64,000 nt of DNA from positions 2,852,001 to 2,916,000 of the forward strand of contig NZ_OZ156465.1 of the NCBI RefSeq assembly GCF_964212655.1. Direction: 5' to 3'. The stretch comes from Candidatus Thiodiazotropha sp. LNASS1. GTDB lineage: Bacteria; Pseudomonadota; Gammaproteobacteria; Chromatiales; Chromatiaceae. Each line of letters starts with the position of its first letter. Position 1 is the first letter of the stretch. Below the pieces are notes generated by a model. It was not told where the DNA came from, searched no databases, and saw nothing but the letters and a program-made list of their open reading frames with translations. Below are positions 26,642 through 33,254 of the stretch, piece by piece. A program made the position numbers and the translations under genes.

Positions 26642-28063
26642 CTACTTTTTCCTGGATTTGGAACGCTTGGATTTAGTCTTTTTCACCGCAGTTTTTTTGC
26701 CGGATGAAACCTTTGCCGTCACTTTTTTCAACCCGGTGTTCTTGGGAGTCCTCTTTTTGGCCACTCCCTTTTTGTTGGCCGTCTTCTTTGCTTTTGCTTT
26801 TGCTTTTGCTTTTGCTTTTGCACGTTTTTTTACCGCTTTGCCACGCTGCCGTACAGCTGATCGATCGGACTTGGCCGATACCTTGCCGCGTTTCTTGGCA
26901 CTACCGGTTGTGCCTTTTGCCTGTTTCCCGGGTGACGGCCTTGAAGCAGCCTTTTTTGTCGCGACCTTCTTCTTTTCAGCCACTTCAGATTTCAGTGTCT
27001 TCTTTTTGCTTAGCTTCTTCTTGCTTGGTTGCTTTTTTACCGGCTTTTTCTGCGCTGTCCGATGAGTGCTTGATTTCTTTTTAGCCGCGCGTGACTTTGC
27101 CGCAGTCCGTGTGCTCGACTTCTTTTTGGAAGCCTTTTTCTTAACCACTTGCCTGGCTGCCGGCTTTTTTTTGCTTGTCTGCTTTCTGGCCGCCTGTTTC
27201 GTTTCCGCCTTCTTTCGGGTCGCCTTTTTTTTCACTACCTTGTTCGGAGCAGGAACCTTGTCCTTCTTCTCCCGGCTTGCAACAGACACAGGAGCCACTG
27301 TCTCTTCAGCGGATCGGGCAGATGCTTCTTCAAGTACCGGGCTCTTATCGCTCTCCTCTGTACGCTTCTCGGCTACCGGCTGAGCTTCAATCGAGGCATC
27401 CTGACCGGATTGCCGGCTTCCTTCATCGATCGTCTTGCAGATAAGCTGGAAAACCTGATGGATCTCGCCATTGCCGTCGATCTTGACCAATTTATCCTGC
27501 TTCCCATAGTGGGTGATCAGGGGTGATATCAGATGGTCGAAGACGTGAATTCGACTGCTGACCGTCTCTTCGTTGTCATCCGACCTTTGGTGCAGGCGTC
27601 CACCACAAACATCACACACACCGTCAACAACTGGAGGGTTCCTATAGATGTTGTAGAGCAGTCCGCAACTGCGGCAGGTGCGCCGCCCCACCAGACGCTC
27701 CATGAGGGTGTCTGTCTCAATATCGATCAGCAGAATCAGATCTAAGGGTTGATTGATCTCGATCATCAGTTCATCGAGGGTCAGTGCCTGCAGGAGATTT
27801 CTGGGAAAGCCGTCCAGTACGAAACCATCCTGGAGTTCACTTTTCAGCAACCGCTCACGGAGCAGTGCCAGGACTATATCCTCAGTTACCACCCTGCCGG
27901 CATCCTGCAGTTCTTTTACTTCGAGACCCAGTGGCGTCCGCTTCAGCACAGCATTCTTCACCAGCTCGCCCGTCATCACTGGGGATAGGCCGTATTTATT
28001 AGCCAGCAGGTCTGTCTGTGTCCTCTTACCCGACCCCGGTGCCCCCAGTATTACAATTCGCAT
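26642..28063 (-). CDS. Adenylate kinase with long lysine-rich histone-H1-like C-terminal tail
   Basis: 473 residues, about twice the normal length. Residues 1-215 are an adenylate kinase: P-loop GAPGSGKRTQ (the usual Gly after Lys is Arg), TGELVKNAV (Lys for the usual Arg), DGFPRN, RLVGRRTC, a zinc-type lid with CRSC and CDVC, and RSDDNEETVSSRI. The active-site arginines of the P-R-N, GRR and lid positions are kept. Residues about 260-473 are almost only Lys, Ala, Arg, Ser and Thr, with blocks such as KKKATRKKAE and KAKAKAKAKAKK. This is the composition of histone H1/AlgP-like DNA-binding tails. It sits beside the PPi-phosphofructokinase and pyrophosphatase genes. It could be a nucleoid-tethered AMP/ATP enzyme; activity cannot be proven from sequence. 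Confidence 0.85.
   Translation of the reverse strand: MRIVILGAPGSGKRTQTDLLANKYGLSPVMTGELVKNAVLKRTPLGLEVKELQDAGRVVTEDIVLALLRERLLKSELQDGFVLDGFPRNLLQALTLDELMIEINQPLDLILLIDIETDTLMERLVGRRTCRSCGLLYNIYRNPPVVDGVCDVCGGRLHQRSDDNEETVSSRIHVFDHLISPLITHYGKQDKLVKIDGNGEIHQVFQLICKTIDEGSRQSGQDASIEAQPVAEKRTEESDKSPVLEEASARSAEETVAPVSVASREKKDKVPAPNKVVKKKATRKKAETKQAARKQTSKKKPAARQVVKKKASKKKSSTRTAAKSRAAKKKSSTHRTAQKKPVKKQPSKKKLSKKKTLKSEVAEKKKVATKKAASRPSPGKQAKGTTGSAKKRGKVSAKSDRSAVRQRGKAVKKRAKAKAKAKAKAKKTANKKGVAKKRTPKNTGLKKVTAKVSSGKKTAVKKTKSKRSKSRKK
26786..26821. repeat. Hexanucleotide microsatellite (TTTTGC)n in the adenylate kinase tail
   Basis: Five exact TTTTGC units (26792-26821) plus a degenerate one upstream. 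On the minus strand they encode alternating Lys-Ala. The unit is a multiple of three, so copy changes alter tail length without breaking the frame. Confidence 0.85.
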
Positions 28064-28399
28064 CCCCTGATATCTCCAACGCTACAAAAAAAAGTTGTTT
28101 TTCCTTTTATTACAGCCATTTAAGCTGGACCTCATAGACATCTACGATATTTTTTCGCTTAATCGGGCCACCGCCGCTACAGGTACTCTTCATGCTTAAT
28201 TCCACTGTCAGATCCCTTTGTCGGGTGCATCAATTAAGAAAATCCATGGCTCCATCCAAGTTTTGCATTAGCCGCCAGCCGTGAGCTTGGGTAAGCTAAT
28301 CCAAGATTTCCCGCAAAGTCAACGGACTTTGTGTACTAAACAGATCAATTAGATTATTCTTCTCTGCCTCATGCAGCGACCTAATGCAGAGTGGCCTTC
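28064..28399. other. Divergent intergenic region
   Basis: 336 bases between the adenylate kinase gene (leftward) and a small unknown gene (rightward). It contains A- and T-runs near 28085-28105 and 28150 but no clear terminator, RNA gene or repeat that I can support. Confidence 0.3.
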
Positions 28400-28744
28400 A
28401 TGCCTGAAATTCCAGATATAACAGAATCTGAACACTGGATCATCGAAACCACGTTGACAGAGCGTTACGGAGGTAAGGTTGAAACCCAGATTGCAGATGC
28501 CGAGATACGCCTGATGCCCTCCGATCGAGAGCTATCGAGCTGTCCGGTAATCTATTGGAATCAAGAGGACTGCAATTTCATTGTTTTCAAAACCGGCAAC
28601 CGTAAATACCGCTGCCAGTTTTTCTACCGGGGCTATCAACAGTATGGCACCGGTGTCGACGAATACGACGACCTCACTGAATGCATCGTCTCCCTGCTGC
28701 AGGCCCAGGCCGATCATGCGGCAAGAGAGAGAGGTGACCTATAG
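28400..28744 (+). CDS. Conserved-looking small acidic protein, unrecognised
   Basis: 114 residues from the ATG at 28400; a GTG at 28391 is also in frame. I do not recognise a family. It is soluble and acidic, without signal peptide or membrane helix. Visible features are WIIETTLTERYG, two cysteines near the middle (SSCPVIYW, EDCNFIV), a basic-aromatic stretch RKYRCQFFYRGYQQYG and an acidic helix VDEYDDLTECIVSLLQ at the C-terminus. Regular codon use and position 62 bases before the PPi-phosphofructokinase gene suggest a real gene possibly co-transcribed with it. Confidence 0.6.
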   Translation: MPEIPDITESEHWIIETTLTERYGGKVETQIADAEIRLMPSDRELSSCPVIYWNQEDCNFIVFKTGNRKYRCQFFYRGYQQYGTGVDEYDDLTECIVSLLQAQADHAARERGDL

Positions 28745-28806: not shown

Positions 28807-30063
28807 ATGACTGCTAAAAATGCCTTCTATGCCCAATCGGGCGGGGTCACCGCGGTGATCAATGCCTCCGCTTGCGGGGTTATCGAAACCGCCCGCCAAC
28901 ACCCCGACAAGATTGCCAATGTCTACGCCGGACGCAATGGCATCATAGGCGCGCTTACCGAAGACCTGATCGATACCAGCGCCGAATCGGCTGAGGATAT
29001 CGCTGCTCTCAAACACACGCCTTCCGGTGGTTTCGGGTCGTGCCGTTTCAAGCTGAAGAGCCTGGAAGACAATAAAAGGGAATACGAACGCCTGATTGAG
29101 ATTTTCAAGGCCCACAATATCGGCTACTTCTTCTACAACGGTGGTGGCGACTCGGCCGACACCTGCTATAAAGTCTCCCAGCTGTCTGAAAAAATGGGGT
29201 TTCCGGTACAGGCGATTCATGTACCCAAGACGGTTGACAACGACCTGCCGATTACCGACAACTGCCCGGGTTTCGGTTCGGTAGCCAAGTATATCGCCGT
29301 CTCCACACTGGAGGCCTCTTACGATGTTCGCTCAATGGCTGCCACATCGACCAAGATATTCGTGATCGAAGTCATGGGCCGCCACGCCGGTTGGATCGCC
29401 GCTGCCGGCGGCTTGGTTGAGGATAACGGCATACCGGTTGTCATTCTCTTCCCAGAGGTGGAGTTCAATCAGGAGAAGTTCCTCGCCAAGGTCGACGCCA
29501 AGGTCAAGGAACACGGCTACTGCTCGATTGTGGTCTCGGAGGGCTGTCACTGGCCAGATGGTAAATTTCTTGCCGAACAGGGTACCCGCGACGCTTTCGG
29601 CCACGCCCAGCTGGGCGGCGCCGCCCCCGTGGTCGCCAACATGATCAAAGACGCCCTGGGCTACAAATTCCACTGGGCTGTGGCCGACTACCTGCAACGG
29701 GCCGCCCGTCACCTTGCATCGGCCTCTGATGTCGAGCAAGCCTATGCCTTGGGCAAGGCGGCAGTGGAGAAGGCATTGGAGGGTAAAAACTCCATCATGC
29801 CCACAGTGGTACGCGAGTCTTCCAGCCCATACAAATGGAGTATTGGCGAAGCCCCTCTGAGTGAGGTGGCGAATGTTGAAAAAATGATGCCGATGGAGTT
29901 CATCACTGATGACGGATTCGGCATCACGGCCGCCTGCAAGGAGTACCTCTATCCCCTGATCAAGGGCGAGGCTTATCCTCCCTACACTGAAAACGGCATG
30001 CCAGACTATGTCACTATGAAGGGTGTGGCGGTACCAAGGAAACTGGATAGCTTTGAACTTTAA
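28807..30063 (+). CDS. pfp: Pyrophosphate-dependent 6-phosphofructokinase
   Basis: 418 residues. Catalyses the reversible phosphorylation of fructose 6-phosphate using PPi. The family is shown by YAQSGGVTAVINASACGVI at the start, FYNGGGDSADTCYK, the PKTVDNDLPITD catalytic motif (PKT-DND is the PPi-type form) and MGRHAGWIAAAGG. In autotrophs that carry it, the enzyme can also act on sedoheptulose 1,7-bisphosphate and return phosphate-bond energy as PPi. It is followed by a clear terminator and then the H+-pyrophosphatase gene, the arrangement described for sulfur-oxidising symbionts. GGGGATCAT precedes the ATG. Confidence 0.93.
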   Translation: MTAKNAFYAQSGGVTAVINASACGVIETARQHPDKIANVYAGRNGIIGALTEDLIDTSAESAEDIAALKHTPSGGFGSCRFKLKSLEDNKREYERLIEIFKAHNIGYFFYNGGGDSADTCYKVSQLSEKMGFPVQAIHVPKTVDNDLPITDNCPGFGSVAKYIAVSTLEASYDVRSMAATSTKIFVIEVMGRHAGWIAAAGGLVEDNGIPVVILFPEVEFNQEKFLAKVDAKVKEHGYCSIVVSEGCHWPDGKFLAEQGTRDAFGHAQLGGAAPVVANMIKDALGYKFHWAVADYLQRAARHLASASDVEQAYALGKAAVEKALEGKNSIMPTVVRESSSPYKWSIGEAPLSEVANVEKMMPMEFITDDGFGITAACKEYLYPLIKGEAYPPYTENGMPDYVTMKGVAVPRKLDSFEL

Positions 30064-30225: not shown

Positions 30226-32265
30226 GTGAACACAGAACTAATCTTCGCCCTAGCCTGTGCGGTTGCCGCGCTTGCCTATGGCTTCCTATCCGTAAAATGG
30301 ATACTTGCGCAGCCTGAAGGCAACGAGAAGATGCGAGAGATAGCCGGCGCCGTACAGGAAGGTGCCAAGGCCTACCTCAACCGCCAATACACCACCATCG
30401 GTATCGTAGGCGTAATCCTGTTCGTCATACTCTGGTACTTCCTCGGAACCGCGACCGCGATCGGTTTTGCCATTGGCGCCGTCTTCTCAGGTCTTGCCGG
30501 CTACATCGGCATGCACATTTCCGTTCGCTCCAATCTGCGCACGGCCCAGGCCGCCGACAACGGCATCAACGCGGCTCTGCAGATCGCCTTTCGCGGCGGC
30601 GCCATCACCGGCCTGCTGGTTGTCGGACTAGGACTGTTGGGTGTGGCCGGTTACTACGCCATTCTCATCGCCATGGGGGTCGAGGATCCTCTGCATCCCC
30701 TGGTCGGCCTGGCCTTTGGCGGTTCGTTGATCTCCATCTTCGCCCGACTTGGTGGCGGTATCTTTACCAAAGGCGCCGATGTGGGCGCCGATATCGTAGG
30801 CAAGGTCGAGGCGGGCATCCCCGAGGATGACCCCCGCAACCCCGCGGTTATCGCCGATAACGTGGGTGATAACGTGGGCGACTGCGCCGGCATGGCAGCC
30901 GATCTGTTCGAAACCTACGCGGTTACCGTGGTTGCAACCATGCTGCTCGGCGGTCTGCTGATGGCCGATGCCGGTACAGCACCGATACTCTATCCGCTTG
31001 TATTGGGCGGTGTCTCCATCATCGCGTCTATCGTCGGTACCTTCTTTGTCAAGGCAAAGGATACGGACACCAACGTCATGCCCGCTCTTTATAAGGGTTT
31101 GATCGTAGCCGGTCTCCTCGCCGCCATCGCCTTCTACTTCGCCACTGACATGATCATGGACGGAGTCGGCGGTTTCAACACCATGCAGCTGTTCGGTGCT
31201 GCCATGATCGGTCTGGTTCTGACCGCTGCGATGGTAGTGATTACCGAATACTACACCTCTACCGAGTTCTCGCCAGTGCGTCAGATTGCCCAAGCCTCCA
31301 CCACAGGTGACGGCACCAATGTCATCGCCGGCCTGGGCATCTCCATGAAGTCCACAGCTGCGCCTGTGATTGCGGTGTGTGCCGCAATCTGGGGTTCATA
31401 CGACCTGGCCGGACTCTACGGCATCGCCATTGCGGCGACCGCCATGCTCTCCATGACCGGTATCATCGTTGCACTGGATGCCTATGGCCCGATCACGGAC
31501 AACGCCGGCGGTATCGCCGAGATGGCGGAACTGGATGAGAAGATCCGCAATATCACCGATCCCTTGGATGCCGTGGGCAATACCACCAAGGCCGTCACCA
31601 AGGGCTATGCCATCGGATCGGCCGGTTTGGCCGCCCTGGTGCTGTTCGCCGACTTCACCAGCACCCTGGAGCACGCAGGCAAGACCATCAGCTTTGAACT
31701 TTCCGATCCAGCGGTATTGATCGGTCTCTTCATTGGCGGCCTTGTCCCCTACCTGTTCGGTTCCATGGCCATGGAAGCGGTTGGCAAAGCCGCCGGCGGC
31801 ATCGTCAACGAAGTGCGTCGCCAGTTCCGGGAAAAACCTGGCATCATGGATCACAGCGAGAAACCGGACTACGGACGCGCTGTGGACTTGCTGACCAAAG
31901 CGGCCATCAAGGAGATGATCATCCCATCGCTGCTGCCGGTATTGATGCCGATCGTAGTAGCCCTCGGCATCGGGTGGCTGATGGGCGGTGACGCCGGCGC
32001 CAAGGCGCTGGGCGGCCTGTTGATCGGCACCATCGTCACCGGCCTGTTCGTCGCCATCTCCATGACCGCCGGTGGCGGCGCCTGGGATAACGCCAAGAAG
32101 TACATCGAAGACGGCAACCACGGTGGTAAGGGTTCGGATGCCCATAAGGCGGCGGTCACCGGCGACACTGTAGGCGACCCCTACAAGGATACCGCCGGTC
32201 CTGCGGTCAATCCGCTGATCAAGATCATCAATATCGTTGCCCTGCTGATCGTACCTATTCTCTAG
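30226..32265 (+). CDS. hppA: K+-independent-type proton-pumping membrane pyrophosphatase
   Basis: 679 residues from a GTG, with GGAGG at 30213-30217. About 16 membrane helices. The PPi/Mg site reads [20 protein letters not shown] and [35 protein letters not shown] and [19 protein letters not shown] complete it. The position that sets potassium dependence reads GNTTKA, with Lys instead of Ala, the form known for K+-independent H+-pumping enzymes. It couples PPi hydrolysis to proton export, or makes PPi from the gradient. Together with pfp upstream and ppa downstream it forms a PPi-handling block. A terminator follows at once. Confidence 0.96.
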
Positions 32266-32705: not shown

Positions 32706-33254
32706 ATGAATCTGGACCGAGTCTCCTCAGGAAAGAATATTCCTGATGAAATCAATGTCATTATCGAAATCCCGTCCAACGCCGATCCGGTAAAATATGA
32801 GGTGGACAAGGAGACAGGCGCCATGTTTGTCGACCGCATCCTGCGCACCGCCATGCACTATCCGGCCAACTACGGGTATATTCCACACACGCTTTCTGAC
32901 GATGGAGACCCCTGTGACGTGATGGTGCCCACCGCTTTCCCGTTGATCCCTGGCTCAGTGATCCGCTGCCGCCCGGTAGCCGTTTTGAAAATGACCGATG
33001 AATCCGGTGATGACGCCAAGGTCGTTGCGGTGCCGGCGGATGACGTTTCAAGTCGTTGGAGACATGTCAAATCGGCGGACGACATGCCTGAGGAACTGAT
33101 GGAACGCATTGCCCACTTCTTCGAACATTACAAGGACCTCGATGAGGGTAAATGGGTACGTGTTAAGGGCTGGGAAGGTGCCGAGGCCGCCAAAGAGGAG
33201 GTCACCAACTCGGTACAGATGTACAAAGACGCACCGGAAAAACCGAACTTCTAA
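32706..33254 (+). CDS. ppa: Inorganic pyrophosphatase (soluble, family I)
   Basis: 182 residues. Hydrolyses PPi to phosphate in the cytosol. Family I residues are visible: [46 protein letters not shown] (the D-x-D-P-x-D metal site) and ARK-like [14 protein letters not shown] near the end. Third PPi-related gene in a row after pfp and hppA; a soluble PPase that drains PPi is expected to compete with both, so control of expression matters. Confidence 0.96.

Follow-up and report, generated by a model that had tools for sequence, protein, structure and literature searches.

Adenylate kinase (Adk) sets the balance of adenosine mono-, di- and triphosphate (AMP, ADP and ATP), and the common view is of a housekeeping enzyme that diffuses freely. 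The gene studied here lies on the minus strand of a 64,000-nucleotide stretch of the genome of Candidatus Thiodiazotropha sp. LNASS1 (the window, whose first letter is position 1) and encodes an Adk domain that continues into a long Lys/Ala-rich, histone-H1-like tail. The accessible part of PMC9239181 describes two Pseudomonas proteins with comparable segments, AlgP, which binds DNA and is associated with polyphosphate (polyP) granules, and PhaF, which is associated with polyhydroxyalkanoate granules; the spacing of polyP granules depends on the Lys/Ala/Pro tail of AlgP, and peptides derived from this tail bind DNA. Escherichia coli Adk, according to the available portion of PMC6471074, binds ribosomes with a Kd of 3.7 µM, and 1 µM ribosomes halve its Vmax. 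Among the matches listed from open-licence PubMed Central, no title or opening of an abstract described a tailed or pseudo-enzymatic bacterial Adk.

Judged from sequence, the fusion of an adenylate kinase with a histone-like tail is real, widespread and recurrent. The best reading, held tentatively at a probability of about 0.4, is that the protein would act on adenine nucleotides, as an enzyme or a sensor, while tethered through its charge, probably to nucleic acid.

Structure of the tailed adenylate kinase

The preliminary description of this DNA, made from its letters, had proposed an Adk fused to a Lys/Ala/Arg-rich tail, and an unbroken 473-codon frame confirms the proposal in both place and strand. 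The features of the gene are as follows.

26642..28063, minus strand: tailed adenylate kinase gene, ATG to stop, 473 aa plus stop, no internal stop
27419..28063, minus strand: ADK domain, residues 1-215 (Pfam PF00406 and PF05191; AlphaFold2 model)
28016..28045, minus strand: P-loop GAPGSGKRTQ, residues 7-16, with G14R (Arg14 in 20/20 same-genus proteins)
27605..27676, minus strand: zinc-type lid with Cys130, Cys133, Cys150 and Cys153 (Pfam and core-residue alignment)
27263..27418, minus strand: mildly acidic linker, residues 216-267 (composition)
26645..27262, minus strand: Lys/Ala-rich histone-H1-like tail, residues 268-473 (composition; AlphaFold2 model)
26787..26821, minus strand: (TTTGCT)5.8 microsatellite, given as the plus-strand unit, coding KAKAKA (repeat search)

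Pfam assigned ADK (PF00406) to residues 5-190 (E 9e-40; 136.7 bits against a cut-off of 26.8) and ADK_lid (PF05191) to residues 127-162 (E 1e-14), and the protein scored 199.4 bits against a cut-off of 168 for TIGR01351, while falling under the cut-offs of all NCBIfam equivalog Adk models listed. Among solved structures it comes closest to adenylate kinases, namely 5g3y (E 2.8e-60) and 5g3z, 3dkv and 1zin among others, and the four cysteines (C130, C133, C150 and C153) place the domain in the zinc-lid subtype. The protein is by descent a diverged member of the Adk family whose Adk activity is putative.

AlphaFold2 block means are 88-95 over residues 1-210 and mostly below 50 beyond about residue 225, with a predicted helix at tail residues 401-425. 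The linker contributes 11 Asp/Glu and 8 Lys/Arg in 52 residues, followed by a tail with 71 Lys, 15 Arg and 32 Ala per 206 residues and a net charge of +81. This is a long disordered Lys/Ala-rich C-terminal segment of the kind that characterises AlgP, PhaF and H1-like basic tails. The KAKAKA microsatellite of the preliminary description was recovered as a six-base repeat, (TTTGCT)n, of 5.8 copies. A sequencing frameshift between two separate genes was considered and is ruled out by the open ATG-to-stop frame and by conservation of that frame in relatives.

The genome to which the window belongs, a single contig of 4.75 Mb, contains three ADK genes in total. The question of a second canonical adk is answered by the two others, both tail-less, which encode 214 aa without lid cysteines and 213 aa with them. 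Elsewhere in the same genome (C1:3324135-3324461, L228) there is a second small Lys-rich reading frame, weakly matching a relative's tail (E 0.002).

Conservation and selection within the genus

The tailed gene is present in 20/20 same-genus genomes searched, and 19 of them carry tails of 125-324 residues, counted from residue 219; absence of the tail from close relatives, which the preliminary description would have taken as disproof, was thus not what was found. The remaining genome (G017, L170) has a tail of only 31 residues, with in-frame stops in the remaining basic stretch and the domain open; within the genus, this genome appears to have lost its tail recently.

The ratio of nonsynonymous to synonymous substitution rates (dN/dS) was calculated by the Nei-Gojobori method with the authors' own script on pairwise MAFFT alignments. 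For the domain it was 0.05-0.19 in 11 close same-genus pairs and 0.04-0.24 in six further pairs. Tail values were 0.30-0.51 in nine of the ten close pairs with a finite tail dS and 0.82 in the remaining pair. The two tail-less paralogues gave 0-0.11 over 11 comparisons. These values indicate that the frame of the tailed gene is real and selected, and that the tail is less constrained than the domain.

Distribution beyond the genus

Tails of 84-321 residues with 19-58% Lys plus Arg were found at 36 of 40 other gammaproteobacterial loci, and tailed Adks occur in at least 23 group-coded gammaproteobacterial families. To be taken as tailed, a locus of the class needed an open frame of at least about 300 codons, and tail-less loci were picked from shorter frames with a zinc-lid-length match; three of the 36 non-genus tails (L121, L133, L153) run off their contig, and for the class the numbers of tailed loci are minimum values. 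Steroidobacter gossypii, a Thiotrichaceae metagenome-assembled genome (MAG) and Natronospirales MAGs are among the named records with tails. The endosymbiont of Lamellibrachia anaximandri (L034) shares the gene order of the window, which makes it likely that the window comes from a lineage of sulphur-oxidising symbionts. Among loci L047-L113 of the best 80 kept, tails appear only in L052 and L070, both titled proteobacteria.

No ADK match other than the tailed protein was found in 16 of the 36 non-genus genomes, all of them 95-100% complete. The first pass scored at most ten candidates per genome; a second search of these 16 genomes, with every candidate scored, gave the same result. A histone-like tail therefore sits on the only Adk detected in 16 genomes, and all 16 of these proteins are canonical at the 18 core residues considered below. 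On the tail-state tree, from which ten of the 20 same-genus rows were thinned out, ten changes are needed, at least four of them on starred branches. Those ten changes rule against a single origin of the gammaproteobacterial tail and imply that gains and losses are mixed.

A further tailed Adk is found in another class. Of 249 genomes of the phylum, seven, probably relatives of Bradyrhizobium, have a protein over the cut-off of the model NF010381 (PRK13808), and none of the seven belongs to the window's class. In each of these proteins the Adk lacks the four lid cysteines and ends in an Ala/Lys-rich tail; just 3' of the adk lies, in 7/7, an S13-like gene recognised by a sequence motif. Because the type of Adk and the locus both differ, a separate acquisition of this tail is suggested.

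This distribution bears on one account of the tail, in which it grew by microsatellite slippage and has no function. The KAKAKA microsatellite, the wide variation of tail sequence and length (31-324 residues in the genus), the stops that cut the tail in G017 and the single tail dN/dS of 0.82 would fit such low-complexity drift, but tails in at least 23 families, a dN/dS mostly of 0.30-0.51, the separate case in another class and retention of the tail in proteins with an eroded active site oppose it, and of all the explanations weighed here it is the least probable.

Altered and eroded active sites

Eighteen core positions were selected on the basis of the known biochemistry of E. coli Adk. The window protein is canonical at 15 of the 18, retaining K13, T15, D84 and all lid arginines tested, and differs by G14R, D33E and R36K. 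These are the substitutions GKRTQ and TGELVK reported in the preliminary description; numbered after the 214-aa Adk of the same genome, the former is G14R and the latter D33E with R36K. Across the genus, G14R occurs in 20/20 proteins, R36K in 18/20 and D33E in 14/20; T15A and D84N are further changes in four same-genus genomes, of which three also have G32S, with a domain dN/dS of 0.10-0.24. Conversely, 30 of 31 tailed proteins outside the window's family are canonical at 18/18 positions. The window-type substitutions thus mark a divergence specific to the lineage, and they are nearly confined to genomes that have another Adk. The earlier view that this is not the normal bacterial adk thus applies to the window's genus and fails for the wider family of tailed proteins, which supplies the sole Adk, with an intact core, in 16 of the 36 non-genus genomes.

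A set of 15 tailed proteins, from the window's family together with L146 of another family, deviates at 4-11 of the 18 core positions; the set leaves aside the window-genus rows L157 and L166 and also L260, whose ADK domain lies in two parts on different contigs. Losses are concentrated at T31 and G32 (15/15), R36 (13/15), and T15 and D84 (11/15), with K13, Q92, R123 and R171 each retained in 14/15 and the four lid cysteines in 15/15. Every member also has a tail (66-321 residues) and a neighbouring gene for pyrophosphate-dependent phosphofructokinase (PPi-PFK). The eroded state requires five changes on the best tree, where ten proteins from ten genera form one clade (support 98/98, with the bootstrap not fully settled), and the domain dN/dS of a same-genus eroded pair (G026/G677) is 0.09. 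Another ADK match is present in 13 of the 15 genomes with an eroded tailed protein. The 15 proteins are likely pseudo-adenylate kinases under selection, to judge from these patterns.

In two genomes, G666 (90% complete, eight deviations) and G656 (72% complete, four deviations), the eroded protein is the only ADK match. A strict rule that a sole Adk implies an intact core was rejected on account of these exceptions, where the assembly may lack a second adk. As a separate observation, L146 (genome G044) has G14R, D33E and R36K all present among its seven deviations, and these shared substitutions may reflect convergence or transfer.

Two other readings draw on the erosion. In the first, the ADK domain of the window's genus and its relatives would have ceased to be chiefly an enzyme and would bind an adenine nucleotide and signal, or gate the basic tail on RNA, DNA or the nucleoid, in the manner of RapZ, a precedent described in the available part of PMC9841335. 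The 15 relatives that lost 4-11 core residues and yet keep the lid cysteines, the tail and the PPi-PFK neighbour, the five changes and the ten-genus clade, the low dN/dS of the G026/G677 pair, and the fixation of G14R in the genus with T15A and D84N in four genomes and G32S in three all favour such a nucleotide sensor or pseudo-kinase. The window protein itself, however, keeps K13, T15, D84 and the tested lid arginines and may be active, and other family members lack a detectable tailed gene, as decay towards loss would predict; this reading is accordingly considered possible but unlikely.

In the second, the tail would be foremost an H1-like DNA-compacting element, with the Adk domain largely its carrier. 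Its composition resembles the H1/AlgP type as set out in the accessible text of PMC9239181, and it is kept where the active site is lost. Genomes with a sole Adk presumably need a working enzyme, however, and the domain dN/dS is below that of the tail in every pair with both values, which leaves little probability for a protein that serves the nucleoid first.

The pyrophosphate locus

The preliminary description also placed the gene beside genes of inorganic pyrophosphate (PPi) metabolism. This was borne out, and the neighbourhood is conserved in relatives.

28064..28390, no strand: intergenic region between the divergent adk and PPi-locus genes; divergent arrangement conserved
28391..28744, plus strand: ORF117, 117 aa, a conserved open reading frame (ORF), first gene of the divergent PPi locus, syntenic
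28807..30063, plus strand: PPi-PFK (NCBIfam NF010675, 638 bits)
30226..32265, plus strand: membrane ion-translocating pyrophosphatase, HppA (PF03030, E 3e-272)
32706..33254, plus strand: soluble inorganic pyrophosphatase, Ppa (PF00719; NF002317)

PPi-PFK is present in 18/20 same-genus regions, and contig ends truncate the other two; HppA is present in 17/20 and Ppa in 16/20. Non-genus tailed regions contain PPi-PFK in 23/36 and Ppa in 20/36, always 5' and divergent, with one or the other in 35/36. At the 24 tail-less loci, PPi-PFK is near one and Ppa near 14. Genome-wide, PPi-PFK exceeds the cut-off in 32/36 tailed genomes versus 8/24 tail-less genomes (Fisher p 1.3e-5), and by family majority in 19/23 tailed versus 5/13 tail-less families (p 0.011).

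ORF117 has no Pfam or NCBIfam match at E 0.01; many gammaproteobacterial relatives also have it, conserved, at the head of their PPi-PFK locus. Seven loci (L127, L129, L135, L137, L142, L259, L267) contain a distant HppA relative, 45-48% identical to that of the window, on the same strand as the nearby tailed adk, unlike the HppA of the window, which is divergent from it. Four same-genus loci (L155, L160, L161, L169) have about 4.8-4.9 kb between the tailed adk and a DUF1451 gene.

Proposed mechanism

In the tethered-enzyme reading, the zinc-lid ADK domain would bind ATP and AMP, and the flexible polycationic tail would hold it by charge on nucleic acid, that is, on RNA, ribosomes or the nucleoid, which are the most abundant polyanions. 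The tethered Adk would return AMP to ADP near AMP-forming reactions such as tRNA charging, which releases AMP and PPi, and the divergently encoded PPi-PFK, HppA and Ppa would consume the other product, PPi. Outside the window's family the tailed Adk would be an ordinary active enzyme, as the intact core of 30/31 proteins indicates. In the window's genus, with two other Adks, the tail would still hold the tailed copy, which would probably be either a kinase of slower or altered activity or a sensor that binds nucleotides. Nucleic-acid binding, local AMP recycling and reduced activity in the window's genus are the steps that we infer.

The tethered-enzyme reading draws on the retention of frame and tail across the genus, on the tail and domain dN/dS, on the tailed Adks of other families and of another class, on the genomes whose sole Adk is tailed and canonical, on the conserved PPi neighbourhood, on the ribosome binding of E. 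coli Adk and on the link of the AlgP tail with DNA binding and polyP granules. Retention of the tail despite a lost active site further suggests that cells benefit from keeping this protein attached to nucleic acid or to some other polyanion.

The choice of polyanion was examined through polyP. An AlgP-like tail could dock Adk on polyP and couple AMP/ADP exchange to polyP kinases. E. coli Adk is said to be linked with PPK, and the window's genome has ppk1 and four PPK2 genes. The requirement for the KPAA tail of AlgP in polyP granule spacing, reported in the part of PMC9239181 noted above, points in the same direction. Nevertheless, ppk1 is found in 26/36 tailed genomes (one contig-end fragment under the cut-off) versus 19/24 tail-less genomes (p 0.76). 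Moreover, eight of the ten tailed genomes without ppk1 are also without PPK2, all 95-100% complete, and in five of these eight the tailed protein is the sole Adk. Because eight tailed genomes lack both enzymes, polyP made by ppk1 or PPK2 is not a general ligand; as a required partner it is disfavoured by co-occurrence, and a polyP-granule enzyme is quite improbable, though a shade less so than a protein serving the nucleoid first. Of the DNA or polyP binding that the preliminary description ascribed to the tail, binding as such is a prediction from sequence and the polyP requirement has lost ground. As tail ligand, nucleic acid would be the default alternative to polyP.

Several observations weigh against the tethered-enzyme reading. 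Kinase activity cannot be the whole function in the relatives that lost core residues. The tail has been lost or is absent in several lineages, some of them at a comparable place beside Ppa (14 of the 24 tail-less loci), and it is therefore not indispensable to Adk. The association of tail and PPi-PFK is inseparable from shared ancestry, there being too few independent pairs on the trees, and PPi-PFK exceeds the cut-off in 71 of 77 genomes of the window's family, with or without a tailed gene. For some of the family genomes in which no tailed gene was detected, 20 PPi-PFK regions were inspected, one of which (L293) spans only 2.4 kb; no ADK-like (best E 1.2) or Lys-rich ORF was found beside PPi-PFK, which therefore does not require the tailed Adk. 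A strict need of PPi-PFK for the tail is ruled out by these two results. The suggested coupling to PPi chemistry thus keeps its conserved neighbourhood with PPi enzymes and loses any dependence of PPi-PFK on the tailed gene.

If it is true that many bacteria keep their sole Adk on a polyanion by means of a histone-like tail, the cellular site of the Adk reaction becomes directly testable; likewise, the eroded tailed relatives, apparently under purifying selection, would constitute a bacterial pseudo-adenylate-kinase family. A broader proposal, more doubtful than the sensor reading set out above and less so than the polyP one, is that Gammaproteobacteria have a family of nucleic-acid-tethered Adks, which in one bacterial family would repeatedly have given rise to conserved tailed pseudo-Adk sensors opposite a PPi-glycolysis locus, reporting energy charge on RNA or the nucleoid, with the window protein as an intermediate.

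Comparison with known systems

The window protein shares with zinc-lid adenylate kinases the domain order, the P-loop lysine, the catalytic arginines and the Cys4 lid, and differs by about 260 extra residues and by G14R, D33E and R36K. PRK13808 (NF010381) likewise consists of an Adk followed by an Ala/Lys-rich tail, with features of its own: it has no lid cysteines, a tail of about 100 residues and a gene just before an S13-like gene. The window protein, at 120.5 bits against a cut-off of 426, is not a member of that family. AlgP and PhaF of Pseudomonas resemble it in their Lys/Ala-rich C-terminal domain, whereas the accessible part of PMC9239181 describes no enzyme domain for them, and co-occurrence does not make polyP a requirement for the tailed Adk. 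RapZ, likened here by its description in the available part of PMC9841335, combines an Adk-like N-terminal domain with a positively charged far C-terminus implicated in RNA binding.
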